Source: an uncultured Ignavibacteriota bacterium
GTDB lineage: Bacteria > Bacteroidota > Ignavibacteria > UBA10030 > UBA8401
Reading direction: 5' to 3'
DNA length: 64,000 bases
NCBI GenBank assembly: GCA_903861125.1
Contig: CAIOTF010000015.1
Coordinates: forward strand, 186,001 to 250,000
Positions 18,266 through 47,828 of this stretch are shown here, piece after piece; position 1 is the stretch's first letter; each line of letters begins with the position of its first letter. The notes beneath the pieces were generated by a model. It had not been told where the DNA came from, ran no database searches, and saw nothing but the letters and a program-made list of their open reading frames with translations. The translations under genes and the position numbers were made by a program.

Positions 18266-21200
18266 ATGATGAAAATCAGTAATCAAACATTGAACTTTCT
18301 TGTCTTCTGGTTTTTAATACTCCCCAGTGCTATATCTTCTCTCTATTCCAAAACACTATTTGTACCGAATCAATATCGAACAATCCAATTTGCCATTAAT
18401 GGTGCACGCACCGGTGATACTGTTCTGGTCGATGATGGCATATATTACGAAAATCTTCGCATCAACAAGAATATCGTACTCGCCAGCCGCTTTATTATAG
18501 ACAGAGCCCCTTCCCATGTTTCCAAAACAATTATTGACGGGAGTAAACCGAGCAATGTACTCAAAGCAAGTGTAATCTATATTAGCGGTACAACAGACAC
18601 CAATTGTGTTATTGTAGGATTTACGCTTAGGCGCGGGACTGGTACATATCTGCATGTTCCTCCAGACCCTATTTGGAATTCCATACCGTACGGTTTTAGT
18701 GTACATAATATCGCCGGAGGGGGAATCCTCATCGATAATGCAAGCGCACGTATTGCTTATAACATTGTTACAGAAAACTCACTTTCCACACGATACAAAA
18801 ATAATTTTTCATTTGGAGCCGGTATTGGATCCAACGATTCAACCTACGGCATAAATATTCCACCGTATATCATTATAGAACATAATACGGTCATTCATAA
18901 TATTTCGGATGGAGATGAATTCGCTGAAGGGGGAGGTGTTGATATCGGGCAGCCGGGAATTATTCGCTTTAATACGATCACCGATAATCGTACCACTTCG
19001 CACAAGCGATCGGTAGGCGGCGGCGTTAATCTTTGTCAAAATTCAAATTTTGATCTTCTCCTCGATGGAAATTATATCTGCGGCAATTATGCAGACATTG
19101 GTGCCGGGATGATCGTTTCTTCCGGTTTTATCAGACGCGGGCGGTCGATTGTAACGAACAATATCTTTGTTGACAATGAGGCGTTTGAAGTTGGAGGCGG
19201 AGTGCATGTCGGGGGAGATTCGTATGTTCTCTTTATTAACAATACCGTTGTACGAAATACTGCGCTGGCAAGTGGCGGCGGAATCTTTGTGGAAAAAGAA
19301 TCTCATTGTAGTCTTATCAATAATATCATTTGGGGAAATAATGAAGAAGAGTTATCTGTTCATGGTGATTTCCATGCGATCTCAAATTTAATTGAAGGAG
19401 GACATACAGGACGAGACAACATTCGTGACGATCCGAAATTCCTTCCGGACGATTCACTTTATCGACTCTCACCCAATAGTCCATGTATTGGAACAGGAAC
19501 CGGCCGCATTTCGATCATAGAAAAATCATTTCCAATGCCGGATCATGATTTTTTCGGCCGCCAACGTCCTGTTCCGTACGGCACGTCGTGCGATATCGGA
19601 GCGATGGAATCGTCGTTTGAACCTTCTTTTACCGCAACGAAGATTCGGGAAACACGGAATGCGTCGAGTGATTCTAAATTTAAATTCACAATCGTTATTG
19701 ACCAAATCACTTTAGGTGATCGTGATCCGGTTACTTCCAAAATTATCCGTGCCGGGAAAATGCATACTGTACTCATCGTCAACGATTCCATCCGGTATAT
19801 ACTGAACGATTCTCTGCCTGTTCCTGCATTTGTAATTTCACCGGAGAATAATCTTATAGAACTGGAACTCATCGGCAGGGCAATGCAAAGGAATAAAGGG
19901 ATCAATGTCTCTTTCTGGATTGAAGGATTAGATTCTTATGTTTCGTTATTACCTAAAGCGCACGAAGTAATATACCGATGCTATTCAGAATTAAAACCTG
20001 GAAAGTATAAACTGTTTTTCCAGCCGCAGGATCAGGAAAACATTATTAGATATACCAACAAATTTTTCATAGAAATTATTGTCCAGCCGTACTGGTATCA
20101 ACGATGGTGGGCGTATGCCGTGTTTGGACTCGGCGTCATAGGTATCACCATCGGATTCTATCAAATGCAGGTTGCGCGAATACGGCTGGCTCAAAAACTT
20201 TCACGTGAGCAACTGCAAGCCGACAAGATCACGGAAATGAGCAATGTAAAATCCCGTTTTCTTGCAAATATCTCGCATGAACTGCGGACGCCGCTTACTC
20301 TGATCATCGGACCGATCGATGCATTGATCGCGCAGACAAATAATCAGGAATTCAAGGAACAATTAGGATATATTCAGCGAAATAGCCGAAAGCTGCTCCG
20401 GCTGATAGAACAGCTGTTACAATTTTCCCGGCTCGAATCAGGGAAAATTAAACTTCGTGTGTCGCCGATGAATGTTATACCGTTCCTCAGAAGAATCACC
20501 GGATACTATATAAGCCAGGCGGCAAAAAATCAGATCGACCTGCAGTTCGTCTCTTCTGTTGATACGATTCACGGTATGATCGATGCGGAAAAGATCGAAC
20601 ATATCCTGCAAAACTGTATTTCGAATGCGCTGAAATACACGCACTCCGGAGGGTCCATTACCATTCGCGCATGGCAGGAGAAAAATGAACTTGTCTTTTC
20701 CGTCAAGGATACCGGTGACGGGATCGCACCGGAACATCTGCCGCATGTGTTTGACCGCTTTTATCGTGTCGATCCGACGCACAAAATGGAAGGAACAGGG
20801 ATCGGCCTTTCTCTTTCAAAGGAACTGGCAGAGGTTCACCGTGGATCGATATTTTTGGACAGCGAACTCAGGAAAGGGACAACAGTCACAGTTCGCCTAC
20901 CGCTCTCAGGGTATACTGAAACGGAATTTTCATCAATACCGTATGTCCCTCAGGAGATTGAAACCATGAACAGTACGTCTTCTCCTCTTCCCGATCCCCC
21001 TTCCGGTGAAAAGGATGAGTTACCGATAATTCTGATTGCTGAAGACAATAACGATGCGAGGGGATTTATCCGGTTACAGCTTTCAAAACAATATACCGTG
21101 ATTGAGGCGTTGGATGGCGAAGATGCGCTGAATAAAACAAAATTTCAGATACCGGATATTGTGATCAGCGACGTGATGATGCCGAAGAAGAACGGATGGG

Positions 21201-21775
21201 AACTTTGCCGGGAATTGAAAAAGGATGAACGGACATCTCATATTCCGGTCATTTTGTTGACCGCCTTGGCCGAGAAAGATGATAAATTGAAGGGGCTTGA
21301 TTCCGGAGCTGATGATTATCTTATCAAACCGTTCGACGCCAAGGAACTGCTCACACGCGTACGGAATCTTTTGGAGATTAGAACTAAGCTCCGCGAGTCG
21401 TACGGAAAGACGGTTACGCTGAAACTGGGAGAAGTCTTTGTAACATCGCTCGACGATGCATTTCTGTATAAAGCATTCGGCATCGTTGATGCACATCTAT
21501 CGGAATCCGAATTCAGTGTTGAGGCATTTGCGCACGAGATGTTCCTCAGCAGAACACAACTGCAGCGTAAAATTAAAGCAGTCACAAATTTTTCTCCTAG
21601 TGATTTTATCCGGCACCTCCGGTTGCAGCGTGCAAAAGAACTTCTGGAAAAAAATGCCGGTACGGTGGCCGAGATCGCGGACCGTGTCGGATTTAACAAT
21701 CATTCATACTTCGCAAAATGCTTTCAGGAACAATTCGGAATCCTCCCCAATCACATTCGCAATCCTCATAAATAA
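18266..21775 (+). CDS. HTCS-like hybrid regulator with extracytoplasmic right-handed beta-helix sensor
   Basis: 1169 residues. Signal peptide (about 1-29). Right-handed parallel beta-helix ectodomain (about 30-450; repeated coils such as GGGILIDN, GGGVDIG, GGGVHVGG, GGGIFVE with NN/NT turns). A Y_Y_Y-like segment (about 540-605, SELKPGKYKLFF). Transmembrane helix (about 613-635). HisKA with His about 671 (ISHELRTPL). HATPase (NALKYT, DTGDGI, GTGIGLSL). Receiver with Asp about 969 (VISDVMMPKKNG). AraC-type HTH (about 1065-1165). In Bacteroidota, hybrid two-component systems usually carry beta-propeller sensors and control polysaccharide-use genes; here the sensor is a beta-helix. Its N terminus (VPNQYRTIQFAINGA, HVSKTIIDGS) is homologous to the secreted proteins at 21927 and 46134. 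The likely target is the adjacent secreted gene (inference). Confidence 0.92.
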   Translation: MMKISNQTLNFLVFWFLILPSAISSLYSKTLFVPNQYRTIQFAINGARTGDTVLVDDGIYYENLRINKNIVLASRFIIDRAPSHVSKTIIDGSKPSNVLKASVIYISGTTDTNCVIVGFTLRRGTGTYLHVPPDPIWNSIPYGFSVHNIAGGGILIDNASARIAYNIVTENSLSTRYKNNFSFGAGIGSNDSTYGINIPPYIIIEHNTVIHNISDGDEFAEGGGVDIGQPGIIRFNTITDNRTTSHKRSVGGGVNLCQNSNFDLLLDGNYICGNYADIGAGMIVSSGFIRRGRSIVTNNIFVDNEAFEVGGGVHVGGDSYVLFINNTVVRNTALASGGGIFVEKESHCSLINNIIWGNNEEELSVHGDFHAISNLIEGGHTGRDNIRDDPKFLPDDSLYRLSPNSPCIGTGTGRISIIEKSFPMPDHDFFGRQRPVPYGTSCDIGAMESSFEPSFTATKIRETRNASSDSKFKFTIVIDQITLGDRDPVTSKIIRAGKMHTVLIVNDSIRYILNDSLPVPAFVISPENNLIELELIGRAMQRNKGINVSFWIEGLDSYVSLLPKAHEVIYRCYSELKPGKYKLFFQPQDQENIIRYTNKFFIEIIVQPYWYQRWWAYAVFGLGVIGITIGFYQMQVARIRLAQKLSREQLQADKITEMSNVKSRFLANISHELRTPLTLIIGPIDALIAQTNNQEFKEQLGYIQRNSRKLLRLIEQLLQFSRLESGKIKLRVSPMNVIPFLRRITGYYISQAAKNQIDLQFVSSVDTIHGMIDAEKIEHILQNCISNALKYTHSGGSITIRAWQEKNELVFSVKDTGDGIAPEHLPHVFDRFYRVDPTHKMEGTGIGLSLSKELAEVHRGSIFLDSELRKGTTVTVRLPLSGYTETEFSSIPYVPQEIETMNSTSSPLPDPPSGEKDELPIILIAEDNNDARGFIRLQLSKQYTVIEALDGEDALNKTKFQIPDIVISDVMMPKKNGWELCRELKKDERTSHIPVILLTALAEKDDKLKGLDSGADDYLIKPFDAKELLTRVRNLLEIRTKLRESYGKTVTLKLGEVFVTSLDDAFLYKAFGIVDAHLSESEFSVEAFAHEMFLSRTQLQRKIKAVTNFSPSDFIRHLRLQRAKELLEKNAGTVAEIADRVGFNNHSYFAKCFQEQFGILPNHIRNPHK

Positions 21776-21926
21776 TACCTTTTTGTCCTGTTTTGTTTAA
21801 CCCCTCATTGGTAAAGAATGCATCATCAGTGGTATAGTTTGCACCACTGGTGTTAACGCATTGCACTCATCATTTAATATTTTTGGTCAGTTTTGAAATA
21901 CTCATCACCAACCATTGGAGGCTAGC

Positions 21927-24896
21927 ATGCGTAAACATGTCGTTGTCGATGTTACATTCCTGCTGTTCGCTTTTCTTTTTATTTCAAATGCAACAACACG
22001 TAAGGTCCCGCAGGATTATGCAAAAATACAATCGGCGATCAATGCGGCGGTGAATGGTGATACGGTGCTTGTAGCGGAAGGAACATACATCGAAAATATT
22101 GTTATCAATAAAAAAATCATTCTTGCAAGCCAATTCTATTTGGATAAAGATACTTCACACATATCAAAAACAATCATCGATGGCAGTACACCAACACATG
22201 CGGACAGTGGAACGGTGGTTGTCTTTACTGCGGGAACTGACTCTACAACACTGGTAACCGGATTTACCATCACTAACGGAACCGGTATGAAACTCATTTG
22301 GGCGAATTATAACTGCCGCTATGGAGGTGGGGTTGCATATACAGAACTTGGCGGAGGAATTATAAGAAATAATATTATTTCAAAAAATACTGTCACGGTT
22401 CCTGCTGGTTTTTATGGCGGAGCAGCAGGCATTGCTGCGTGGGGATCAAATCTACAAACGAGACCACACAAAGCAATCATTGAGAACAATATCATCGAGA
22501 ATAATATGGTTGTGCCAACGGGAGCAACCAGTTTCACCGAGGTAGGTGGCATAGGAGTATGGGAGGGATATTGCAGGATCACGGGAAACGTTGTTCGAAA
22601 TAACACGGTTCAATGGCTTCATCAAACAGGTTCTTGTACGGGCGGCGGGATATTGGTAGATTCTGAAAACGGTGGGAACGATTCAATGATCGTCATCGGC
22701 AATACTGTTGTCGGAAACAAGTCGCGTCAGGGAGGCGGTATCACGGTCGCTGGCAACGGGAACCGAGCATTAATCCAAAGCAATACCGTCATTGGAAATA
22801 CTGGGGATATTGCGGGAGGAGGAATCTTCCTTTTTTATAAACTGGTTAATGCAAAAGTAATAAACAATTATGTTTCAAAAAACATTTCTCCGCAAGGCGG
22901 CGGTATCCGGATAGATCAGGCTAGTATCTGCTATATCGCCAATAATATCATCACTCAGAATACAGCGAGCACGTCTGGAGGCGGTATAAACCTCATTTCT
23001 TCATCCAATATTCAATTGGTCAATAACACCATTGTTGGGAATAGTAATAATGGAGTTGAGGCAATCAACGGTGCATCCGCACAAGCATTCAATAATATCA
23101 TTTGGAACAATACACCATCGCCTATGACTGGTACGATATACTCATTAAATAATTTAATAAGCGATCCAAAATTTATACCAAACGATTCGCTCTATACTCT
23201 TTCAGCGTTAAGTCCGGCTATAGGCGCAGGTAGTACTTCAACAACAGTTGGCTATGTTTTGCTTACCGCACCTGCTTTAGATTATTCTGGTTCTTCCCGT
23301 CCGAATCCATCATGGAGCAATCCTGATCTTGGTTCGATGGAATCTTCTCGGGCATTCCCGGGAGGTAACGCAATTCGTGTTCCGCAAGATCAATCCACAA
23401 TTCAAAAAGGAATAAATGCGGCACAAAATGGCGATGTTGTTCTTGTTTCGGAGGGTACATATAAAGAGAATATTGTCATCACCAAAAAAATAACGGTGGC
23501 AAGTCTTTATTTCATTGATAAAGACACGTCACATATTTCAAAAACCATAATTGATGGATCTGCTCCTTCCAGTGTCGATTCCGCTGCTGTTATAACCATT
23601 GACGGATCAACAGATACAACTACGATGATCATTGGATTTACAGTCAGTGGCGGCAGAGGCAACCGAAGAGTTACTACTGATCCCTTGGTGTATCGAACAG
23701 GAACAGGCATTGACGTCGCCGGCGGAGGCGCAACAATTCGCAAGAACTCCATCACCGCCAACAATGTAACAGCATCGACAAGCGTAAGTGCCGTTGTCAA
23801 TATCTGGGATGTTACTGATATCAAAGGAATCTCATTTGTTATTGTCGAAGACAATACTATTTCAGACAATGTATTAAATGGCGCTCCATCAGTTGAGGGT
23901 GGCGCCCTTGCGATTGGTCATAGTAGCAGAATTATCGGCAACCGGATACTTCGAAATTCCATTATCGGAAAAAGCGCGGGTTTTGGTGCAGCAGCACAAA
24001 TATGGAATGGCACAATAACATTTGAAAGGAACCTTATTGCGAATAACTATGCCTCTACATGGGGCGGAGCGATACAGACAAATCTGATTGGAGGTATGAT
24101 CATTCTCCTGGACAACATTATAGCAAACAATTCCGCCGGATTGCAAGGTGGTGCAATATGGGCAAGGTGGGCAACGTCAAAAGTATTTTCAATTAATAAT
24201 ACCATAATCGGAAACACAAGTCCGGCTGGAAGCGGACTCTTTTTCAGGGATACTGCGTCGTTTACAGGAATCAATACCGTCCTTTGGAATACGGGCGGAT
24301 CGGAGATATCGAACGTAAACAATGGCCGCATTGCACTCTCCTACTCTGATATACAATTCGGTTTTGCAGGGACAGGAAATATTAACAGCGATCCACTCTT
24401 AAAATCCACTAATATTGATTCTCTCGGAATGTTGAAATCGGGCAGCCCATGCATCAATGCCGGATCAGGAAGGCAAATAGTGTCAGGCTCAGTGCTTACT
24501 GCGCCTCTCATCGATTTTTATGGAAATATTCATGGTGTTACTCAAAGACCGGATATCGGAGCAGTTGAAGATGGAACATTTATTAATGATCCTACATGGG
24601 GAGTAAAAGAGCTCCTCACCAATCGTCTTCCGGAAGCATTTGAGTTATCTCAAAATTATCCTAACCCGTTCAATCCATCAACAACAATTCGGTATGCACT
24701 CCCCTCCTCTTCACAGGTCAAACTGGTTATCTATGATCTGCTTGGACGGGAAATCACAACGCTTGTTGACGAGGAACAATCGGCGGGATGGAAGGAAGTG
24801 GAGTGGAATGCTGGCGGTGCGTCATCAGGAATTTATTTCTATAAAATATCCGCAGGTACGTTTGTTGAAACAAAGAAGATGGTGGTTGTAAAATAA
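21927..24896 (+). CDS. Secreted double beta-helix protein with T9SS tail
   Basis: 989 residues from ATG 21927, with GGAGG 4-5 nt upstream. Signal peptide (about 1-24), then two homologous right-handed beta-helix domains (about 27-475 and 483-905). Each opens with the same element (VPQDYAKIQSAINAAVNGD and VPQDQSTIQKGINAAQNGD; both then HISKTIIDGS), showing internal duplication. T9SS tail about 912-989 (ELSQNYPNPFNPST, VIYDLLGREI). Beta-helix proteins of this pectin-lyase-like type are often polysaccharide lyases or adhesins. No lyase active site can be identified, so carbohydrate binding is as likely as catalysis. It lies directly downstream of the beta-helix sensor gene, whose ectodomain belongs to the same family. 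Confidence 0.9.
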   Translation: MRKHVVVDVTFLLFAFLFISNATTRKVPQDYAKIQSAINAAVNGDTVLVAEGTYIENIVINKKIILASQFYLDKDTSHISKTIIDGSTPTHADSGTVVVFTAGTDSTTLVTGFTITNGTGMKLIWANYNCRYGGGVAYTELGGGIIRNNIISKNTVTVPAGFYGGAAGIAAWGSNLQTRPHKAIIENNIIENNMVVPTGATSFTEVGGIGVWEGYCRITGNVVRNNTVQWLHQTGSCTGGGILVDSENGGNDSMIVIGNTVVGNKSRQGGGITVAGNGNRALIQSNTVIGNTGDIAGGGIFLFYKLVNAKVINNYVSKNISPQGGGIRIDQASICYIANNIITQNTASTSGGGINLISSSNIQLVNNTIVGNSNNGVEAINGASAQAFNNIIWNNTPSPMTGTIYSLNNLISDPKFIPNDSLYTLSALSPAIGAGSTSTTVGYVLLTAPALDYSGSSRPNPSWSNPDLGSMESSRAFPGGNAIRVPQDQSTIQKGINAAQNGDVVLVSEGTYKENIVITKKITVASLYFIDKDTSHISKTIIDGSAPSSVDSAAVITIDGSTDTTTMIIGFTVSGGRGNRRVTTDPLVYRTGTGIDVAGGGATIRKNSITANNVTASTSVSAVVNIWDVTDIKGISFVIVEDNTISDNVLNGAPSVEGGALAIGHSSRIIGNRILRNSIIGKSAGFGAAAQIWNGTITFERNLIANNYASTWGGAIQTNLIGGMIILLDNIIANNSAGLQGGAIWARWATSKVFSINNTIIGNTSPAGSGLFFRDTASFTGINTVLWNTGGSEISNVNNGRIALSYSDIQFGFAGTGNINSDPLLKSTNIDSLGMLKSGSPCINAGSGRQIVSGSVLTAPLIDFYGNIHGVTQRPDIGAVEDGTFINDPTWGVKELLTNRLPEAFELSQNYPNPFNPSTTIRYALPSSSQVKLVIYDLLGREITTLVDEEQSAGWKEVEWNAGGASSGIYFYKISAGTFVETKKMVVVK

Positions 24897-31213: not shown

Positions 31214-31360
31214 TACGTTTTTATGCGTTACGTTCAGAACTCGTCGGCATATGCCGCGAATGGAACCAGGGGAAAGTCACTACTGTTCCAAACATATCAA
31301 CCCTCCTTCCATCTTCCGGCGCAGCCGGTATTTCAATCCAGGTTTAATAAGAACTATCTA
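31214..31360 (+). ncRNA. Structured 5' leader element, copy B, with promoter
   Basis: A TACGTTTT box (31214-31221) with TGG 20 bp upstream is a weaker version of the promoter at copies A, D and E. Hairpin 1: TCG-T-CGGCAT/ATGCCG-CGA (31241-31259), with the bulged T also seen in copy D. Then GAATGGAACCAGGGG and the run CCCTCCTTCCATC. Hairpin 2: CCGGC-GCA-GCCGG (31316-31328). It leads into the sensor kinase gene at 31407. Confidence 0.65.
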
Positions 31361-31406
31361 TCCTAATAAGAATCACAAGGTATTGTTGGTACTTTTAGAA
31401 AAAAGT

Positions 31407-34400
31407 ATGAAGCGCACCGTACGATCCTTTATTTTTATTTTCCTCTTCGCCACTCTTTCCCTAACGGGTCAGTCATTATACCATTTTGAGACTATAGGGA
31501 TTGAAGATGGATTGTCGCAATCCCGCGTAATGTCGATCGTGCAGGATACAATCGGTTTCCTGTGGTTTGCAACACAGGATGGTCTGAACAGGTATGACGG
31601 CCGCCGATTCAAAGTGTTCCGCAGCGTACGGAAAGATTCTTCATCGCTTCCGGCAAATTACATCAGTTCATTGGTTGTTTCAAACAAAGGAACACTCTGG
31701 ATAGGAACATATACGCGCGGTCTGTGCCATTTTGATCCACTCACAGAATCTTTTGTCCGATGGATCTGTCCGGAACATAAGGATCGATATCTTAATGAAC
31801 TGGTTATCAGAAGTTTGTGCGAAGACACATCGGGTTGCCTATGGATGGGAACAACAGCAGGAGTTGTAACCTTCGATCCGGTGACGAAGGCCGTCCGACA
31901 TTTCCGTCATGACCCAACGAATGACAGCAGCATTTCCTCTGACGGAATTCGGGCGATCGCGCGCGACTCCTCGGGCAGAATGTGGTGCGCAACACGCAAT
32001 GGCGTGAACCGGTTCGATCCTGCCACCGGTCAATTCATCCGCTACACTCACCGGCCGAATGATGCACGAAGCATAGCAAGCAACACCGTCTGGACCGTTC
32101 AAACAGACCGGGAGGGAACGTTGTGGTGCGGAACTGCCGACGGACTCAGCCGTTATAATAGAACAACGGATGATTTTACTACATACCGGAACACACTAAC
32201 CTCATCCCCATCGTTGACAAGCAATAATTCGGGTGTGGTCTATGAAGATTCGCATAATCAACTGTGGTTTGGAATGAATGACAGATTGCACATTCTTCAC
32301 AAAGTGACCGGCGTTATAGAAGAAGTTTCCCAGAATCCGCTCGTGCCCGGAAGTTTGCCAAGCAATAACGTTGGTTATATTTTCGAGGACAGAAGCGGCG
32401 TGTTGTGGTTTGGATTTGGTTCATACGGAATTGCAAAATTCGATCCTGAATTGCTGAACTTCGGAAGCGTTTATTCCATTCCCTTCGATCAAACATCGCT
32501 GCCGAAACGAAGTGTCCGCCACTTGTTCGAAGATTCAAAGGGAACACTTTGGGTCTCAACCGACGGCGGAGGGATCAGTTACCGGTTAACCGGCGAACAA
32601 ATATTCAGACATCTTCCGTTCGATTCGGCGGGAATTCGCGGACTGCCGGTTCCGTTCGTCAACACAATTGTAGAATGGAATGGCGAGATGTGGTTCGGCA
32701 CGCGCAACAACGGAATAGTTCGTTATAATCCGGTGACAAAAAAATTCCGCACAATCTCTGCAGACACTCACGATACAACAAAACTCGCAAGCGACGTCAT
32801 CGTAGATCTTTTGGTCGACCGTCACGGTTCTCTCTGGATCACCTCCGGCAGAATTGCAGGCTTGCACCGTCTTGATTCACCGGATGGACCGTTTCACCGT
32901 TTTATGCCCGATTCTGCAAATCCGTTCGGACTCAAAACAACTTCCCTCAGTGTACTTTTCGAAGACCGGCGTGGAAGGCTCTGGTGCGGCAGTACTACTG
33001 ACGGAGCATACATGTACGACAAAACGACCGGCCGTTTCCATTCATTTCTTTTTGAACCTGCCGACGAAACATCCATAAGCGACAACGGCGTTATTTCTAT
33101 TACTGAGGATATTGACGGAACACTATGGTTCGGAACTTCGGGAAGCGGATTGAACCGGTATAACGAAAAAGAGGGGACGTTTACACGATTCACTACCGAT
33201 CAGGGGCTGCCGAACAACTACATTTATGGAATCCTCCCTGATGCGCATGGAAATCTTTGGATGAGCACGAACAGCGGAATTGCAAAACTGAATGTCAAAT
33301 CTCTCGACGTTAAAATCTATGATGTCGATAACAACCTGCAGAGTAATGAATTCAATACAAATTCCCTTAGTGCGGGACGCAGCGGACGGATGTACTTCGG
33401 CGGAATCAACGGATTCAACGAATTCCTTCCCGACAGTATCCGTGAACGGAACTATCGTCCTCGCGTGGTAATTATTCAATGCATTGTCAACGACACGATG
33501 ACGATCCCTCTCGCCGCACAGCCCGATGGATACAGATTGACATTCCCTCACAATCTGAACACAATCGAACTCGAAACAGCATCACTCGATTTTTCAATTC
33601 CTCGCCGGATTCAGTACAGATATATTCTGGAAGGATTCGAGGATGAGTTCGTGAATTCCGGAAATCGACGGACCGTGAGATATTCCAATCTTCCTCCTGG
33701 TAGTTATACATTCCGCATATTTGTCACCAACAGTGACGGTGTCTGGAATGAACAGGGAACCACGCTCAAAGTGGTCATTGAACCGGCCTACTGGCAGACA
33801 TGGTGGTTCCGCAGCATCAATATTATTTTATTCCTCAGTCTTATATTGTTGCTTTATCAGCGAGAAGTGGTTCAACTGAGGAAAGATAAACGGACCCGGC
33901 TGGAATTTTCGCGGAAACAGATCGAATCTCTGGAAGCGGAACGGAAACATCTTGCTTCCGAACTGCACGACGGACTCGGACAAAATCTGCTGGTTGTAAA
34001 CATTGAACTACAGCGGTTAATGAACGGACACACAGAACCGCAGGATGATCTTCACCGCATCGCCGAATTGGTGCAGGAATCGGTGGAGAGTGTCCGGGAA
34101 ATCTCATCCAACCTCCATCCGCACCACATCGAACGGCTCGGATTCACTACGGCGGTGAAGGCATTGACGGAAAATGTTTCACATTCAGCAAAACTAAACA
34201 TTGCTTTTTCCAGCGACATGCCGGATCATATGATTCCGAAAGAGGTGGAGATTCACCTGTATCGGATCATCCAGGAAGGTTTATCAAACATCGTCCGGCA
34301 CGCTTCTGCATCGTCGGCACGTGTTGAGATCAGAAAACATCCGCTGTATGTTGAGGTCACCATTGCGGATAATGGGTGCGGATTTAATGCATACGATTTC

Positions 34401-34556
34401 CGTGAAGACCGGAAACCGGAACCGACCGACGAAGTGATGCGCGGATTCGGATTGGCAAGCATGTCCGAGCGGGCACGGATCATCGGCGGTGCTGTCACGA
34501 TCGAATCTTCGGCTGAATCGGGGACCACTATTCACCTTACACTCCCTCTTTTATAA
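31407..34556 (+). CDS. Beta-propeller sensor histidine kinase (Reg_prop, Y_Y_Y, HisKA_3)
   Basis: 1049 residues from ATG 31407, after leader copy B. Signal peptide (about 1-22). A double beta-propeller-type ectodomain built from Reg_prop repeats (GIEDGLSQSRV, FLWFATQDGLNRYDG, LWIGTYTRGLCHFDP and many WFGT..GLNRY copies, about 25-690). Y_Y_Y domain (about 700-790, VRYSNLPPGSYTFRIF). Transmembrane helix (about 797-818). NarL-type dimerisation domain with phospho-acceptor His about 854 (ASELHDGLGQNLL), and HATPase (IIQEGLSNIVRHA, DNGCGF). The cognate regulator is almost certainly the NarL-family gene starting 9 bp downstream. Propeller sensors of this kind detect extracellular ligands, in many cases oligosaccharides; the ligand here is unknown. 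Confidence 0.93.
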   Translation: MKRTVRSFIFIFLFATLSLTGQSLYHFETIGIEDGLSQSRVMSIVQDTIGFLWFATQDGLNRYDGRRFKVFRSVRKDSSSLPANYISSLVVSNKGTLWIGTYTRGLCHFDPLTESFVRWICPEHKDRYLNELVIRSLCEDTSGCLWMGTTAGVVTFDPVTKAVRHFRHDPTNDSSISSDGIRAIARDSSGRMWCATRNGVNRFDPATGQFIRYTHRPNDARSIASNTVWTVQTDREGTLWCGTADGLSRYNRTTDDFTTYRNTLTSSPSLTSNNSGVVYEDSHNQLWFGMNDRLHILHKVTGVIEEVSQNPLVPGSLPSNNVGYIFEDRSGVLWFGFGSYGIAKFDPELLNFGSVYSIPFDQTSLPKRSVRHLFEDSKGTLWVSTDGGGISYRLTGEQIFRHLPFDSAGIRGLPVPFVNTIVEWNGEMWFGTRNNGIVRYNPVTKKFRTISADTHDTTKLASDVIVDLLVDRHGSLWITSGRIAGLHRLDSPDGPFHRFMPDSANPFGLKTTSLSVLFEDRRGRLWCGSTTDGAYMYDKTTGRFHSFLFEPADETSISDNGVISITEDIDGTLWFGTSGSGLNRYNEKEGTFTRFTTDQGLPNNYIYGILPDAHGNLWMSTNSGIAKLNVKSLDVKIYDVDNNLQSNEFNTNSLSAGRSGRMYFGGINGFNEFLPDSIRERNYRPRVVIIQCIVNDTMTIPLAAQPDGYRLTFPHNLNTIELETASLDFSIPRRIQYRYILEGFEDEFVNSGNRRTVRYSNLPPGSYTFRIFVTNSDGVWNEQGTTLKVVIEPAYWQTWWFRSINIILFLSLILLLYQREVVQLRKDKRTRLEFSRKQIESLEAERKHLASELHDGLGQNLLVVNIELQRLMNGHTEPQDDLHRIAELVQESVESVREISSNLHPHHIERLGFTTAVKALTENVSHSAKLNIAFSSDMPDHMIPKEVEIHLYRIIQEGLSNIVRHASASSARVEIRKHPLYVEVTIADNGCGFNAYDFREDRKPEPTDEVMRGFGLASMSERARIIGGAVTIESSAESGTTIHLTLPLL

Positions 34557-34565
34557 AGGATCTCT

Positions 34566-35219
34566 ATGGAATCTACCATTCGGGTAATCATCGCGGACGA
34601 TCATGAGATCTTCCGGGTCGGTCTTGTAAAAACAATCGAACGCGACACGCAATTTTCCACCATAGCACAAGCCAATAACGGAAAAGAAGCGCTTGAACTG
34701 ATCAGTTCCATGAAGCCGGACATAGCCGTTCTTGATGTTTCGATGCCGTCGATGAACGGCCTTGAAGTGGGGCGAACCATTTACCGGGAAGCGATGCCGA
34801 CTGAATTGATCTTTTTAACAATGTATAAGGACATTGCATACTTTAATGCAGCAATGGATATCGGTGCACGAGGATATCTTTTAAAGGACAATGCCAGCAC
34901 AGATTTACTTGTTTGCCTGCGTACAGTTGCTGAAGGAGACCACTATATCAGTCCCACAATGTCGCATCTGCTTGTTGAGAGATTAAAACATACGGAGAGA
35001 CTTGCACAGCAGGTCCCTACACTGCATGACCTCTCCCCTGCGGAACGCCAGATATTAAAACTTCTTGCAGATAATCTTACAAGCAAAGATATTGCCGATA
35101 CATTGTTCGTCAGTATACGTACCGTTGAGAATCACCGCATGCACATATGCCACAAGTTGGGTATTAAAGGGCACCACAGACTGTTGCAGTTTGCTCTGGA
35201 AAATAAAGAGGCGCTGTAA
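34566..35219 (+). CDS. NarL/FixJ-family response regulator
   Basis: 217 residues; AAAGGA is 5 nt before ATG 34566. Receiver (about 4-120) with phospho-acceptor Asp57 (IAVLDVSMPSMNG) and Lys of LLKDNAS. LuxR-type HTH (about 150-212, LSPAERQILKLLADNLTSKDIA, VRTVENHR-like IRTVENHRMHICHKLG). Partner of the propeller kinase immediately upstream. The target may be the tail-to-head T9SS cargo genes downstream, or promoters with the 18-bp palindrome at 35725 and 48229 (inference). Confidence 0.95.
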   Translation: MESTIRVIIADDHEIFRVGLVKTIERDTQFSTIAQANNGKEALELISSMKPDIAVLDVSMPSMNGLEVGRTIYREAMPTELIFLTMYKDIAYFNAAMDIGARGYLLKDNASTDLLVCLRTVAEGDHYISPTMSHLLVERLKHTERLAQQVPTLHDLSPAERQILKLLADNLTSKDIADTLFVSIRTVENHRMHICHKLGIKGHHRLLQFALENKEAL

Positions 35220-36380: not shown

Positions 36381-38285
36381 ATGAGACACATAACGAACAT
36401 CCTGGCGATCCTGTTTGTGTTGTCATCGCTTTGTGTTGCGCAGCAAGACACACTTACAATTCTGTTCGTCAGCGATACACATTCAAGCCTTGCTCCGGCC
36501 GGTCCGCGGTCGGTTGATCTGCAAGGGACCATCGGCGGAATCGCGCGGGCGGCCGCACTAATCAATTCTACAAAAAATACCGAGCCTAACGTGCTGACAC
36601 TCCACGGCGGCGATATGTTCATGGGTTCAATATTTTTCAATATGTATTTCGGCATCGAAGAAATGAAATTGATGGGGGCAATCGGATTCGATGTGCTGAC
36701 ACTCGGGAATCACGAATTTGATCTCGGTCCGCTGGTTTTGCAGCGAGCATTGCAATCTGCGCTGAGGGAAAATCCAATGACGATCGTCTCTTCGAACATC
36801 GAATTCCCGGAGGACGATAAAATTCGATTGCAAAAATATATTTTGCCGTATACCATCAAACAATTCGGATCGACCAAGGTCGGCATCTTCGGCCTGACAA
36901 CGCCTGAAACAAACGCATTGTCGAGTCCTTCACCTGTCTGCTTCAACGAAAATTGCTGCGAATGTGCAGCAAAGACCATTCAGATTCTCAAAGAGAATGG
37001 ATGCACATACATCATTTGTCTGTCGCATATCGGATACGCCCACGATATTATGATGGCGTCCAATCTCAACGGAGTCGATCTGATCATCAGCGCACATGAC
37101 CACAGTTCAAAAGAGATTATAGGGTTTGCAAATCCTTCGGGAAGAATAGCCTGGGTTTCACAAACAGATGCTTTCTATACCGAGATGGGAATGATACAGA
37201 TGCTCGTTTCCGGTCAAACAACGGAACTTCTTTCAGCAGATCATATCCCTTTGGACAAAAAAATTAAGGAAGATCTGACCATAAAAACCCTGGTCGACAA
37301 TATGATTGCCAGAATCGAACTTCAGTTCGGGCCGATGTTTACGAAGCAGATCGGCACGGCAACAGAAACTTTCGATGAAGTTCAGAATGATGTTACAAGC
37401 ATCGGATCGAAAGAAACTGCCGTTGGGAATCTGGTGACCGATGCATTTCGCGCTTACACGATGACCGATATCGCGATCGAGCCAGGCGGATCGACCGCAC
37501 AGCCGATCTTCAAAGGACCGATCATTGGTGATGACTTGTTCCGAGCAATCGGATATGGTTTCAATGAAAATAATAATCTGGGATTCCGTCTTGTAACATG
37601 TACCATCACCGGACAATCGTTGTTGAATGCCCTGGAAAAATGCCTTGAATATTCTCAGGTGAATGATGAGTTCTATCCGCAGGTATCCGGAATGACTTTC
37701 TCATCCAGAAGAGTCACCGAAGAAGGATCTAGGGTGAAATGGGTATTTGTCCACGGCGAGGCATTGGATCCGGAAAAGATATACAGTGTTACCACCAATG
37801 AACTTGCGCTGAATTTGCTGACATCGATGTTCGGCATTACCGTGTCGGACGTTGTTGTTGACCAGGTCACCGAATATCAGGCATTAAGTGCATATGTGGA
37901 AGCACGAGGGACTATTTCTCCGGCCGAAAGATTTTCACCGGGAGTGAAGGACAAAGGACCAATGTTGCATGCCGAAAAGGTGACATCCATGCAGGGGAAC
38001 GGCATAGCAGCCGTCATACCCGACAAATTCTCACTTGGTCAAAATTATCCTAATCCGTTCAATCCGTCAACAACCATCCGCTATGCTCTCCCTGCATCCT
38101 CACAAGTGAAACTTGTCGTGTTCGATCTGCTCGGTCGTGAAATCGCAACATTGGTGAACGAAGAGCAGTCATCCGGATGGAAGGAAGTGATATGGAATGC
38201 CGGCAACATATCATCCGGTATCTATTTTTACAAATTAACGGCAGGGACTTTTGTTGAAATGAAAAAGATGTCGCTGATGAAATAA
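36381..38285 (+). CDS. Secreted 5'-nucleotidase-family metallophosphoesterase with T9SS tail
   Basis: 634 residues; GGAGG 4 nt before ATG 36381. Signal peptide (about 1-20). Metallophosphoesterase motifs: SDTH (Asp32, His34), HGGDMF, TLGNHEFDLGP, CLSHIG, SAHDHS. 5'-nucleotidase C-terminal domain (about 310-515, ETAVGNLVTDAFR and IEPGGSTAQP). T9SS tail about 555-634. UshA/NT5E-type enzymes release phosphate and nucleosides from extracellular nucleotides. Its catalytic region is closely similar to the next gene (38453), a tandem duplicate that carries an extra beta-helix. Confidence 0.92.
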   Translation: MRHITNILAILFVLSSLCVAQQDTLTILFVSDTHSSLAPAGPRSVDLQGTIGGIARAAALINSTKNTEPNVLTLHGGDMFMGSIFFNMYFGIEEMKLMGAIGFDVLTLGNHEFDLGPLVLQRALQSALRENPMTIVSSNIEFPEDDKIRLQKYILPYTIKQFGSTKVGIFGLTTPETNALSSPSPVCFNENCCECAAKTIQILKENGCTYIICLSHIGYAHDIMMASNLNGVDLIISAHDHSSKEIIGFANPSGRIAWVSQTDAFYTEMGMIQMLVSGQTTELLSADHIPLDKKIKEDLTIKTLVDNMIARIELQFGPMFTKQIGTATETFDEVQNDVTSIGSKETAVGNLVTDAFRAYTMTDIAIEPGGSTAQPIFKGPIIGDDLFRAIGYGFNENNNLGFRLVTCTITGQSLLNALEKCLEYSQVNDEFYPQVSGMTFSSRRVTEEGSRVKWVFVHGEALDPEKIYSVTTNELALNLLTSMFGITVSDVVVDQVTEYQALSAYVEARGTISPAERFSPGVKDKGPMLHAEKVTSMQGNGIAAVIPDKFSLGQNYPNPFNPSTTIRYALPASSQVKLVVFDLLGREIATLVNEEQSSGWKEVIWNAGNISSGIYFYKLTAGTFVEMKKMSLMK

Positions 38286-42115: not shown

Positions 42116-42203
42116 TCATTTTTTTCTGTTTCAGAAAAGAAGTTCTGCCTCTTAGTGCAAGATGCGGCAGCAAGATCTATCTTATTGCCGAAAGGAGCCC
42201 GCT

Positions 42204-44948
42204 ATGAAACAGTATCATTCCATATTCATACTCCTGATATTCTCACTCTTTGCTTCTCTAACACTGACGCAGCAGAATGCAATGAGCCAGACAAAATTCA
42301 AAAAGTACAGCGGTAATCCCGTATTGACCGCAGGACCGGCCGGATCGTGGGATGCGGACAATGTCGACTGCGGATCCGTGCTGTATCAGAACTCGATGTA
42401 TCACATGTGGTACACCGGACAGAATGGCTCGGAATCTTCGATCGGATATGCATTTTCAAGCGACGGCATAACCTGGACAAAATATTCCGGCAATCCGGTA
42501 CTGCTGCATGGAGCGTCGGAAGATTTCGATGCGCTGATTGGCCTTCCCTCCGTGATATATGACGCCGGTACTTTTCATTTGTGGTACACTGCATTCAACA
42601 ATTCAACAATTACCATGTTCGGCTATGCTTATTCAACAGACGGAATACAATGGACAAAACATGAGTCGCCAGTTTTTCAGCAAGGAAGCACAGGAAACTG
42701 GGATGATTATGATATTTCTGTCGGACCGGTGATCAAAGAAGATTCGGTGCTGAAGATGTTTTACGGAGGAAGAACCTCTGCCGGTTCGTGGAAAACAGGA
42801 CTGGCCGTTTCGACCGATTCAATACATTGGAGCCGTCAAAACTCCGGAAACCCTGTGCTTGCCGGTGGAGCTCCGGGCGCGTGGGATCAAATAAGTCAAC
42901 GGGCAACCTCCGCGCTTACATACGGAAGTGTATACCAAATTTGGTACAGCAACTTCCGTCCGTCACCATACAACATTGGGTATGCCACCTCCACCGATGG
43001 CGGAATTAATTGGAGCACATATCCAGGTAATCCAATCCTCACTCCGACCACGGGGGAATGGGACGCCGGGTATCTCATCTTTCCGATAGTGCTTCGGGAT
43101 CCAAACGGCCGGTATACAATGTACTATACCGGAGGAAACAGCAACTGGTCGGCGGAGAACATTGGCCTTGCGATTGACACTGCCATCACACAACTGACGG
43201 GAACATACACAGTCGGTATGGGAGGAAATTTTTCCACGCTGGATTCTGCCTTTGCCCGTTTGAACAAGGATGGTGTTCTTGGTCCCGTTACACTATTGCT
43301 GACCGATTCGTTGTACGATGCAACATCCCATGAGAGCGGTTCGTTCAGATTAACCGGTCCGATCGCCGGTGCCGGACCCGCAAGCCGCATCACCATACGG
43401 CCTGCAGATCATGTTGCATTAACAATACAAGGAAATGGCTCTGCCGCTCTGCATTTCGAACAGGTCAGTTACCTTACGCTCGACGGCATACAACTTCAGG
43501 GTGATACACGGTTGAAAGTACGTGCACTGTATAATGGAACATTCTTATACAACGATGCCATCGATTTCTGGGGGAATTGCGATCACAACATTATCCAAAA
43601 TCTTTCCGTTTGTTCGGACGACATCACGCGGCAAGGTATTGCGGTAGCACTGATCGGTTACGATAACAATTCAGGTTCTCCGGACAGTTGTTTACTGTCG
43701 GGCTTATCCATTACATCGGGAGCGTACGGAATATATCTTTATGGACCTGCCTCCATGAAATTAAAAGGAAATGTCATCCGCAATAATCATATCGGATCGC
43801 CAATCGACAGTCTTATTGCTTTGGGCATTTACAACGATTTTTCATCCGAAGGAACGGTCATTGAATACAACCACATCGAAAACCTGCGGCTGCCCGGAAT
43901 TAATGGTCCTTCATCAGTACTCATCGGCATCGCTTTGAACGGAAGCAGAAACTCCATCATTCGAAATAATATTGTCCACAATATCCGCAAGTATGACGCA
44001 AATTATGTAACAGGCATCCGCGCAACAGGTCTATCAAATGAACGGGGCTTAAACAATTGGATTTATAACAATAAAGTGTGGGATATTACGAACAGTTCTG
44101 AGCAATGCACCGAACTGGCAGGCATACTCGCGAAATATCAGGATTCTCTGAAGGTTGATTACAATACGGTCATCCTTCCGGAATCAGGTGATACACCGCC
44201 CTCCGGCGGATCGCAAGCGCTGTGGTTCCAATCAACCGCACTGTATCCGACTGTGCGCAACAACATTCTTGTGAACGCACGAACCGATTCACCTCATGTC
44301 TCTGTCGCAATAAAATTTGATACACCGGTACATCTCTCAGAACATAATGATCTCGTTGTCGGAACTTCGGGAAGAGCAAATATCGCGTCGCTCAACTCAG
44401 CGCTGTACAAAACGCTTGCCGACTGGCAGGGAACGTTGAATGACGTGCACAGTGTGAGCATATGCCCATGTTTCTGCACTATGCATATGCACATTGATAC
44501 AACAACTGCAGTTATGAACGCTCTGGAAGGAAAAGGGACTCCGATTGCAGGAATTTTTACCGACTTTGAAGGTCGGGAACGAAGTTCAACATCTCCCGAT
44601 ATCGGAGCTGATGAGTTCGACAAGACCACCGGTGTTTCATCAGACAGGACCGGCATACCGGAAACATTTTCTCTTTCACAGAACTACCCAAATCCATTCA
44701 ACCCGACAACAACAATTCGCTACGCTCTCCCCTCTTCCGCTAATGTGAAATTGAACGTGTATGATTTACTTGGAAGAGAAATTGCAACGCTCGTTAACGA
44801 AGAACAATCTGCGGGATGGAAAGAAGTGGAATGGAACGCACGCCAGACAAACGGCGGGCAGGCGTCGGCGTTCAGTTCTGGAATTTATTTTTATAAACTC
44901 GAAGTAGGAAGTTTTGCAGAGGTAAAGAAATTAATACTGCTGAAATAA
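42204..44948 (+). CDS. Secreted five-bladed-propeller plus beta-helix protein with T9SS tail
   Basis: 914 residues from ATG 42204 (AAAGGAG 7 nt upstream). Signal peptide (about 1-25). Propeller of about five blades (about 30-325) marked by repeated (Y/N)SGNPVL- and GYA.S.DGI.WT-like motifs, as in GH43/GH32-type glycosidase-like proteins; catalytic carboxylates cannot be assigned safely. Beta-helix domain (about 330-825, opening GTYTVGMGGNFSTLDSAF) homologous to that of the gene at 38453. T9SS tail (about 835-914). The tail holds a 12-residue insert (RQTNGGQASAFS) between its two strands, encoded by a repeat that also occurs in the pseudogene at 48351. Probable role: carbohydrate binding or cleavage at the cell surface. 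Confidence 0.88.
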   Translation: MKQYHSIFILLIFSLFASLTLTQQNAMSQTKFKKYSGNPVLTAGPAGSWDADNVDCGSVLYQNSMYHMWYTGQNGSESSIGYAFSSDGITWTKYSGNPVLLHGASEDFDALIGLPSVIYDAGTFHLWYTAFNNSTITMFGYAYSTDGIQWTKHESPVFQQGSTGNWDDYDISVGPVIKEDSVLKMFYGGRTSAGSWKTGLAVSTDSIHWSRQNSGNPVLAGGAPGAWDQISQRATSALTYGSVYQIWYSNFRPSPYNIGYATSTDGGINWSTYPGNPILTPTTGEWDAGYLIFPIVLRDPNGRYTMYYTGGNSNWSAENIGLAIDTAITQLTGTYTVGMGGNFSTLDSAFARLNKDGVLGPVTLLLTDSLYDATSHESGSFRLTGPIAGAGPASRITIRPADHVALTIQGNGSAALHFEQVSYLTLDGIQLQGDTRLKVRALYNGTFLYNDAIDFWGNCDHNIIQNLSVCSDDITRQGIAVALIGYDNNSGSPDSCLLSGLSITSGAYGIYLYGPASMKLKGNVIRNNHIGSPIDSLIALGIYNDFSSEGTVIEYNHIENLRLPGINGPSSVLIGIALNGSRNSIIRNNIVHNIRKYDANYVTGIRATGLSNERGLNNWIYNNKVWDITNSSEQCTELAGILAKYQDSLKVDYNTVILPESGDTPPSGGSQALWFQSTALYPTVRNNILVNARTDSPHVSVAIKFDTPVHLSEHNDLVVGTSGRANIASLNSALYKTLADWQGTLNDVHSVSICPCFCTMHMHIDTTTAVMNALEGKGTPIAGIFTDFEGRERSSTSPDIGADEFDKTTGVSSDRTGIPETFSLSQNYPNPFNPTTTIRYALPSSANVKLNVYDLLGREIATLVNEEQSAGWKEVEWNARQTNGGQASAFSSGIYFYKLEVGSFAEVKKLILLK

Positions 44949-46133: not shown

Positions 46134-47828
46134 ATGCGTAGACACATCTCTATTGCGTTATTTGTACTGCTTTGCTCAATAATTATTTCCAACGCTGCAA
46201 CCCGCAGAGTGCCGCAGGATTATTCCAAAATACAATTGGCGATCAATGCGGCGGCCAATGGTGACACTGTGGTGATCTCTGAAGGAACATATAAGGAGAA
46301 TCTTGTTCTTAACAAAAAGATCACACTTGCCGGTTTGTATCTCCTTGACAAAGATACATCGCACATTTCTAAAACGATCATCGACGGTAGCGCGCCGACA
46401 AATCCGGACAGTGGGTCCGTGATAGCCGTTGGATCAAGTACTGATTCGACAACAGTGATCACCGGATTAACGATCACCAAAGGGACCGGAACAAAACATG
46501 CGAATACTTTTTATGGCGTAAGTATTGTCACCGGAGGAGGTATTGACGTCAATTCCGGTGGAGCAACAATAAAAAATAATATCATCCGGGGAAACACTAT
46601 TATTATTTTCCCTCCATATACAGAAGCATATGGAGGCGGAATCAGTTTTCTGAATATAGATTGGCCGGTTCCCAACAAATATTCGATCATCGAATCGAAC
46701 CTCGTATCTGAGAACAATCTTGCGGGAGGAATAAATGCAGCAGGCGGTATCGAATTCTGGAGCGTGGATGGCAGAATCGTCAACAATACTATCCTGAAAA
46801 ACAACAGTTATTCAGTAGGAGGTGTTGAGGCAGGTAATACTGGGGGATATGGTCTCAAAACGGTAACCATTCAAGGTAATCTGATCCGCGAAAATATTGC
46901 CTCGGCTTTTGCAGGCGGTATCTCTATCTCCGGCAAAGGTTCCTCCGGAACTATAAATAATAATATGATCGTCAATAATAAGGCCAACCAAATAGGCGGA
47001 ATGTTTATTCACGATTCATGTTATGCTGTTATCGATGGTAATTATGTTTCCGGCAATATTGCTCTGAATGGAAATAACGGAGGGATTTATTTTGAGCGTA
47101 ACCAGAAATATTGCATTGTTCAAAACAACATTGTCAGGAATAATAACGGATGCGGCATTGGAACGAACATGAACTCGGTTGCCCTCATTATTAATAATAC
47201 AGTTGTAGGAAACAGCAGCTATGGAATCATTGCATATACCGGTTCATATGCATCGGCAATGAATAATATTGTGAGAGGCAATACAGGTGCTGCTTTTGCA
47301 GGTTCAATATATTCATCTTCATATTTCACCCTCGATCCACAGTTCGTCACAAATGATACGTTGTACCATCTTACAGATGTAAGTCAGTGTATCGGGAACG
47401 GCACCACATCGGCAGTGCTTGGGGGGTTAACATTAAATGCACCAGAGTGGGATTATTTTAATACACTGCGGCCGAGAGCAGCAGGAACAAAACCGGATAT
47501 CGGCGCGGTTGAACATGACCTGCCATCGGTGATCGGTTCGGTTATAAATATTGCAGATATGCCTGCATTATTCTGTCTTGAACAGAACTATCCCAACCCC
47601 TTCAATCCTTCAACCACAATTCGTTACGCTCTCCCCGCTTCAGCACAAGTGAAACTTATTGTGTATGATCTGATCGGAAGAGAGATTGCGATACTTGTGA
47701 ACGAAGAACAAACGGCAGGATGGAAAGAAGTGCAATGGAATGCCGGCAGCATCTCCAGCAGCATTTATTTTTACAAATTATTCGCCGGTAATTTTTCTGA
47801 TGCAAAAAAGATGTCGCTGATCCGATAA
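46134..47828 (+). CDS. Secreted beta-helix protein with T9SS tail
   Basis: 564 residues; GGAGG 4 nt before ATG 46134. Signal peptide (about 1-21). One right-handed beta-helix (about 23-475), opening with VPQDYSKIQLAINAAANGD and HISKTIIDGSAPT, the same N-terminal element found twice in the protein at 21927 and once in the sensor at 18266. T9SS tail about 488-564 (LEQNYPNPFNPSTT, VYDLIGREI). No catalytic site is evident. Single-unit paralog of the double beta-helix protein. Confidence 0.9.
   Translation: MRRHISIALFVLLCSIIISNAATRRVPQDYSKIQLAINAAANGDTVVISEGTYKENLVLNKKITLAGLYLLDKDTSHISKTIIDGSAPTNPDSGSVIAVGSSTDSTTVITGLTITKGTGTKHANTFYGVSIVTGGGIDVNSGGATIKNNIIRGNTIIIFPPYTEAYGGGISFLNIDWPVPNKYSIIESNLVSENNLAGGINAAGGIEFWSVDGRIVNNTILKNNSYSVGGVEAGNTGGYGLKTVTIQGNLIRENIASAFAGGISISGKGSSGTINNNMIVNNKANQIGGMFIHDSCYAVIDGNYVSGNIALNGNNGGIYFERNQKYCIVQNNIVRNNNGCGIGTNMNSVALIINNTVVGNSSYGIIAYTGSYASAMNNIVRGNTGAAFAGSIYSSSYFTLDPQFVTNDTLYHLTDVSQCIGNGTTSAVLGGLTLNAPEWDYFNTLRPRAAGTKPDIGAVEHDLPSVIGSVINIADMPALFCLEQNYPNPFNPSTTIRYALPASAQVKLIVYDLIGREIAILVNEEQTAGWKEVQWNAGSISSSIYFYKLFAGNFSDAKKMSLIR

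Follow-up and report, generated by a model that had tools for sequence, protein, structure and literature searches.

The window analysed here is a 64,000-nt stretch from the genome of an uncultured Ignavibacteriota bacterium (G000; 4.19 Mb in 54 contigs). It holds a gene for a hybrid two-component (HTCS) regulator, directly followed by a gene for a secreted T9SS protein (Table 1), whose start is most likely the ATG at 21927 rather than the TTG at 21915. The N-terminus of the regulator is hydrophobic, and behind it come, in order, a beta-helix, a Y_Y_Y-like domain, a membrane helix and the relay domains.

Table 1. Features of the regulator/cargo locus and a related gene in the window
Feature	Position	Strand	Basis
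HTCS regulator with beta-helix ectodomain, 1169 aa	18266..21775	+	ORF, Pfam, full-length kin
Beta-helix sensor domain, residues 30-448	18353..19609	+	profile match, structure model, Z 32 to Pel9A
Membrane-proximal Y_Y_Y-like Ig domain, residues ~518-609	19817..20092	+	hhalign against Y_Y_Y of propeller HTCSs
Single transmembrane helix, residues ~614-632	20105..20161	+	sequence; helix in model
HisKA (662-726), HATPase_c (773-881), receiver (922-1033), AraC HTH (1089-1166)	20249..21763	+	Pfam
Predicted HTCS operator, 21-bp direct repeat GCATCATCAGTGGTATAGTTT/GCACCACTGGTGTTAAC	21820..21857	+	conserved in G004, G005, G083
Putative -7 element, TAnnTTTG-like, TATTTTTG	21878..21885	+	same place in G004, near in G587
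Predicted target: T9SS cargo with a C-terminal sorting domain behind two beta-helices	21927..24896	+	Pfam/NCBIfam, homology
Cargo beta-helix half 1	21996..23342	+	profile, model
Cargo beta-helix half 2	23370..24569	+	profile
Third family member, single beta-helix T9SS cargo	46134..47828	+	Pfam, homology

Pfam places HisKA, HATPase, receiver and AraC HTH domains in one polypeptide, behind a membrane helix seen in both sequence and model. The Y_Y_Y domain is absent from a single-sequence Pfam scan at E 0.1, and was recovered by profile-profile comparison of seven beta-helix with eight propeller sequences (hhalign, probability 96.6%, E 6.9e-10). Reg_prop propellers (PF07494) were found in this protein neither by Pfam nor in a genome-wide Reg_prop search; the sister HTCS of G005 does carry them. 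Since BT1754 lacks propellers, we take Reg_prop as usual among HTCSs, not universal, and hence not as defining. The protein is a bona fide HTCS in which a beta-helix stands where propellers usually sit, with the Y_Y_Y domain, membrane helix and relay kept.

Pfam gives just a weak NosD match to the ectodomain, and its structure was therefore modelled. The AlphaFold2 model of residues 30-640 has a mean pLDDT of 75.9, with the beta-helix part mostly above 90; the Ig region is poor (pLDDT blocks mostly 27-68), for which reason the hinge geometry was left unused. In VIA-align, the ectodomain matches the pectate lyase Pel9A (Z 32.0, 319 aligned, 2.4 Å), AlgE6 (Z 29.6) and a rhamnogalacturonan lyase (Z 27.2), while its top Foldseek match is Rhombotarget A (E 3.7e-6). 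Model and fold matches alike bear out the right-handed beta-helix that had been proposed from the letters, and the scores of 32.0 and 29.6 assign it to the Pel9A/AlgE fold. Rhombotarget A and the PL9/AlgE beta-helices are the nearest solved folds, the PL9/AlgE-type ones being only 16-22% identical to the ectodomain. The motif D[PN]H[ED], which we take as a crude catalytic signature of Pel9A/AlgE-type enzymes, occurs, by motif count, in 0/7 sensors and 0/20 secreted domains.

The first 450 residues of the regulator have six matches in the genome at E <= 0.001, itself included, all inside the window: one in the second half of the neighbour (E 3.7e-49), two in its first half (E 8.7e-35 and 4.6e-24) and two in the product of 46134 (E 1.6e-37 and 1.5e-10). 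Identities to these relatives are 37-40%, far above chance. The shared opening that first suggested the relationship does recur in similar form in both neighbour halves and in 46134; alone it is not specific, since proteins of this class share it across several phyla, and close kinship is therefore taken from the tree (below) and not from the motif. The modelled first half of the cargo (mean pLDDT 76.9, pTM 0.81) has beta-helix structure matches like those of the ectodomain, so that the folds of regulator and neighbour agree, supporting a single fold family for sensor and cargo. Residues Y61, N69, C114, R122, R248, E308, G338 and N358 are invariant in sensors only (6/6 sensors, the near-copy in G004 left out, and at most 20% of 20 secreted domains), and are candidate ligand-contact positions.

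The neighbour ends in a type A sorting domain (TIGR04183, E 3.1e-12; Por_Secre_tail, E 2.4e-9). The genome as a whole has a large cargo set, with at least 150 T9SS type A tails (150 of 232 candidates scored). In another T9SS cargo of the window, at 42162-44948, a bladed domain of GH130-like type and a beta-helix are fused; its counterpart in G004 (C57; L041 5408-8248) has a beta-helix of the sensor/cargo family.

The nearest named relative with this regulator gene is an uncultured Ignavibacteriae MAG (L080), whose ectodomain is 97% identical. The 450-aa ectodomain matches 25 of 60 related genomes, its own counted. At order level, the ectodomain profile matched 39/98 genomes at 1e-10, reaching full length to the membrane helix in four of these (G000, G004, G056 and G083); the remaining matches are partial, to the beta-helix or the Y_Y_Y region. 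Across the class, 15/391 genomes have a match at 1e-40, and, with at most three candidates scored per genome, full-length regulators were found in 7/391, namely those four plus G381, G587 and G654. A sample of the phylum matched in 2/395 genomes, both within the seven. A scan of a species-genome collection yielded 53 loci, three of which encode such a regulator (L080, L081 and L082, the genomes of G004, G083 and G056, respectively); as it depends on two peptide patterns, distant cases may be missed. Two further features were noted in G056: an N-terminal remnant, apparently of a second sensor-type beta-helix ectodomain, that ends in a TAG stop (C95; L031/L037), and, directly adjoining the beta-helix regulator, a 170-aa frame like a shrunken GH130-like T9SS cargo with start and tail kept (L035 3211-3720).

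The seven sensor domains form one clade (100/99.8) in a tree built from 47 beta-helix domains, apart from the 40 secreted ones; this rules out that the sensor is a recent duplicate of the neighbour. Together with 20 further rows, all secreted and sharing their own node (90/88), the sensor clade makes up a clade of 27 rows (100/99). These 20 come from nine genomes, six of them with a sensor and a seventh, G005, with the sister output module. Since the ectodomains stand as one clade, beside secreted beta-helices drawn mostly from the genomes that carry them, the sensor belongs to an old lineage and is not a copy of its neighbour. The sister cargo occurs in 6/7 sensor genomes vs 3/384 others (p 1.2e-10, ignoring relatedness; counts from the 1e-40 class matches and the beta-helix tree).

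The output modules tell a different history from the ectodomains. A 10-row clade (100/99) unites the seven beta-helix regulators with three propeller ones nested among them, from G005, G083 (C169) and G017 (C55), and the beta-helix label needs four changes on this tree. The AU test rejects a single beta-helix clade of output modules (p 1.7e-6 for 27 rows, Prado070 alone being left out; p 1.0e-51 for 16 rows, a motif filter having dropped G381, G654 and Prado070), and thereby the view that the regulator arose once as a whole and exchanged no parts. In the tree, kinase and DNA-binding halves from beta-helix and from propeller HTCSs lie mingled, so the sensor unit was exchanged just behind the membrane helix. 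The two regulators of G083, with their different sensors, illustrate this: they are 22-35% identical where they align ahead of the kinase, 65-85% per block along the kinase itself, 40-52% in the segment that follows, and 80-95% in the last 209 residues compared, the last 169 of these being 88-95% identical per block. Similarly, the output modules of G000 and G005 are 66% identical, against 8-36% in the 120 residues before them, and windowed identity between the two regulators climbs behind the transmembrane helix. The Y_Y_Y domain travels with the sensor, and the joint falls between membrane helix and HisKA. With monophyletic ectodomains, the history that needs fewest events has a single gain and some three subsequent substitutions by propellers; that one beta-helix cassette moved several times is a possible alternative. 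At the level of sequence, these comparisons establish the sensor unit as an exchangeable cassette, with sister regulators carrying a propeller cassette on the same output type.

The predicted operator between regulator and cargo consists of two GCAnCAnCAGTGG-like half-sites 21 bp apart, then TTAAC or CTAAC. G004 and G005 conserve its 38 bases, and in G083 (C169) the site can still be recognised. When the pattern was searched with up to three mismatches in 382 class genomes, four sites appeared in three genomes, those before the neighbour in G000, G004 and G005 plus one on another contig of G000 (C50:32411-32448), while the reversed pattern gave 0; the G083 site is too divergent for the pattern. 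The second half-site ends 74-98 nt before the start codon at five sites (G000, G004, G005, G083 and C50). An operator-like site was not found upstream of the paralogue 46134. Taken alone, the repeat is not striking (best 11/15; p 0.065 in G004 and 0.090 in G005), and the best repeat of the G000 intergenic region is a different one, of period 22 (p 0.030). Repeats reaching p 0.005 occur only in G083 (12/15), G381 (15/15) and G587 (15/15). The repeat statistics of G000, G004 and G005 being weak, the G000 site rests on conservation.

Downstream of 51 HTCS genes, where 24 spacings were compared, 21 was the sole clear peak (mean 10.5/15 vs 8.2-8.9). At this period 12/51 regions reached at least 12/15, compared with 0-2 for each of the 23 other periods and with 17/373 other genes (Fisher p 2.8e-5); 39/51 HTCS genes lack a strong period-21 repeat within 350 bp. 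Weaker matrix matches (15.3-20.4; shuffled maximum 14.9), with other letters, were seen in L278, L265, L256, L162 and L289, the first three behind other HTCS genes and that in L162 being the G381 repeat. TAnnTTTG, which we take as the -7 element consensus, has no like element near the site in G005, G083 or C50; a fixed distance for it was rejected, since among 17 sites just those of G000, G004 and G587 have it 25-27 nt downstream. Reconstructed motifs of Bacteroides HTCSs are direct repeats averaging 21 bp apart (PMC3878776), and a direct-repeat operator of about this spacing before the target gene is what we predict here. The conserved site between the two genes supports the proposed regulator-target pairing, and on such sequence grounds the predicted control of the neighbour by the regulator is well supported. 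The further supposition, that sensor and effector must share a fold, finds no support: in G005 the HTCS upstream of this site and this type of cargo has a propeller sensor, so a shared fold is not required for control.

Three of the four such regulators whose downstream side is readable adjoin a beta-helix cargo gene (G000, G004 and G587); the contigs of G056 and of G083 (C222) end inside the regulator. The exception is G381, a closed genome of a single contig, with regulator and cargo cluster ~2.1 Mb apart. In G587 the 15/15 repeat lies directly behind the regulator, and an apparent separation from the cargo was rejected when a 99-bp exact contig-end overlap showed that a two-half cargo follows; by eye, the G654 contig end resembles the start of this repeat. 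The G083 regulator on C222 has a beta-helix cargo two genes upstream. A perfect 21-bp repeat in G381, in letters that differ from those of the G000 site, precedes the first cargo gene by ~375 nt; an ATG 74 nt behind it was rejected as the cargo start.

From the C50 site to the start of its first gene there are 75 nt, compared with 74 nt for the site in the window. The C50 site heads a tight row of five T9SS genes, all on the same strand, with SBBP repeats (propeller), esterase plus FGE, beta-lactamase-fold and alpha/beta hydrolase domains in four, and the tail alone in the fifth. This run may be a secreted polymer-attacking set, its target perhaps an esterified polymer. The pattern search found no counterpart of the site in G004.

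A match between sensor and cargo recurs with another fold. Two further HTCSs (G047, C47; G071, C248) have a GH130-like bladed ectodomain (PF04041), with T9SS cargos of the same GH130-like domain one or two genes away; Pfam scores one of two such cargos above its cut-off and the other just below. In a tree of bladed domains, the sensors and cargos of G047 and G071 share one clade (98/99); in the output tree these two complete HTCSs occupy two separate positions elsewhere. Thus two or more folds show the match, neither of them always adjacent. A third kinase of this kind, in G055, is cut by the contig end. The GH130-like ectodomain also occurs on kinases of another type, as called by a short motif, in G057 (two) and G071 (one); no GH130-like cargo was seen in the stretches examined around the two G057 genes. 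We also note two sensor kinases that differ from each other in output type, both GH130-like, at one locus with same-domain cargos (L259 and L315, G071 C248).

The reading we favour, and hold to be probable with some reserve, is that the beta-helix HTCS senses a polymer fragment through an exchangeable cassette and activates the neighbour and the remote run via the 21-bp repeat. In the periplasm, the beta-helix would bind an extracellular polymer's fragment, and the ligand, by analogy with studied HTCSs, would strain the Y_Y_Y/transmembrane unit of the regulator dimer; BT4663 changes between unbound and bound forms (PMC5121618). The phosphorylated AraC-type output would bind the direct repeat and switch on the secreted beta-helix protein, and in G000 the same output may turn on the remote five T9SS genes, three of which have hydrolase-type domains. 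Fold kinship makes it plausible that sensor and cargo share a polymer ligand; the replacement of the beta-helix by propellers in sister regulators argues that the sensor need neither touch the cargo nor share its fold. Perhaps the sharing is incidental, beta-helices being common as periplasmic or surface domains in this class and an HTCS having acquired one for an unrelated ligand while still controlling its neighbour. The age and separateness of the ectodomain clade (100/99.8), the same-family cargo genes behind propeller HTCSs in G005 and G083, and the many beta-helix cargos without an HTCS beside them would all suit this; we nevertheless consider it rather unlikely, with the sister cargo clade nearly confined to sensor genomes and the second fold repeating the match in two genomes. 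The sequence-only reading had the receptor report ligand while the secreted copies compete as decoys or scavengers. Sensor-cargo homology alone would allow it, but breakdown of a polymer fits the hydrolase-type domains of the predicted second target run better than competition does, and we give this version very little chance.

Sensor domain and T9SS cargo both pass the periplasm, where the beta-helix might contact homologous cargo between Sec and the T9SS translocon, giving feedback on export backlog or cargo level. Homologous beta-helices could stack or compete there, and the co-occurrence of sensor and sister cargo agrees with this, but the propeller regulators of G005 and G083 have a like site and cargo type, so that like-fold contact is not needed for control, and cargo sensing seems improbable. 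Just as much a long shot is the broader proposition that Ignavibacteria HTCS sensors are plug-in cassettes that repeatedly take on the fold of the T9SS proteins they govern, with the beta-helix monitoring its own cargo and coupling transcription to export. The intergenic element, on which the favoured polymer-sensing reading depends for its operator, could also be a hairpin or terminator, or a short reverse-strand coding remnant. By eye, the element of G000 and G004 reads as an inverted repeat too, and a 14-residue reverse-strand peptide is alike between species with several third-position changes; yet the inverted repeat is broken in G005, G083 and C50 while the direct repeat stays, and 21 is the only period to stand out across the 51 HTCS regions, which makes a non-operator role quite improbable.

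The propeller HTCSs BT4663 and BT4673 of Bacteroides resemble the regulator in relay, Y_Y_Y-type domain, AraC output and direct repeats of 21 bp on average; here, a beta-helix replaces the two seven-bladed propellers, and T9SS cargo adjoins. The fructose HTCS BT1754 likewise has a non-propeller sensor, of periplasmic-binding-protein type (PMC3243724, PMC3878776), that differs in fold, and the passages on it in these two papers state no likeness to the controlled protein. In Clostridium thermocellum, the GH10 sensor of RsgI6 is 57% identical to Xyn10D, whose promoter SigI6 recognises (PMC4711584); RsgI6 differs in being an anti-sigma factor, and in serving the cellulosome, not the T9SS. The sensor of BlaR1 has structural homology to class D beta-lactamases, and the protein mediates control over the expression of beta-lactamase (PMC5957439), by a protease relay and covalent antibiotic sensing in its case. 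PorZ of Porphyromonas gingivalis, a surface component of the T9SS whose own T9SS signal is potentially functional, has the build of an HTCS periplasmic sensor (PMC5121618), and is a mirror case, an exported protein with a sensor's propellers, where here the sensor has its cargo's beta-helix. As RsgI6/Xyn10D and BlaR1/class D beta-lactamases precede it, the arrangement is not the new signalling principle it had been thought to be; with PorZ and the non-propeller sensing of BT1754 also on record, it is better called a variant. None of the literature matches listed describes a beta-helix histidine kinase or HTCS, which excludes no fold family.

The locus adds a polysaccharide-lyase-type fold to the HTCS sensor repertoire, and its chief interest is natural sensor exchange over a conserved site. 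HTCS evolution by domain swapping has been proposed (PMC11253607), and this family of sensor/output loci makes it directly testable by giving natural pairs in which the sensor is exchanged and the output module kept (within G083, and in G005 with the same cargo kind and site under a propeller). The predicted operator offers testable targets. If sensor and cargo do bind the same polymer, HTCS ligands could be suggested from genome reading alone.

Other sensor genes near T9SS cargo were noted in passing. The window has at 31251-35219 a sensor kinase of canonical propeller/Y_Y_Y-type build and a different kinase type. A response regulator adjoins it, and T9SS genes follow closely at 36381 and 38342; the latter has 5'-nucleotidase and calcineurin-like domains. 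In L171, L173 and L182, other beta-helix T9SS genes have directly upstream a response-regulator-like gene, called by weak profile matches of 40-42 bits, and a gene of 365-391 aa, perhaps a further type of two-component partner.
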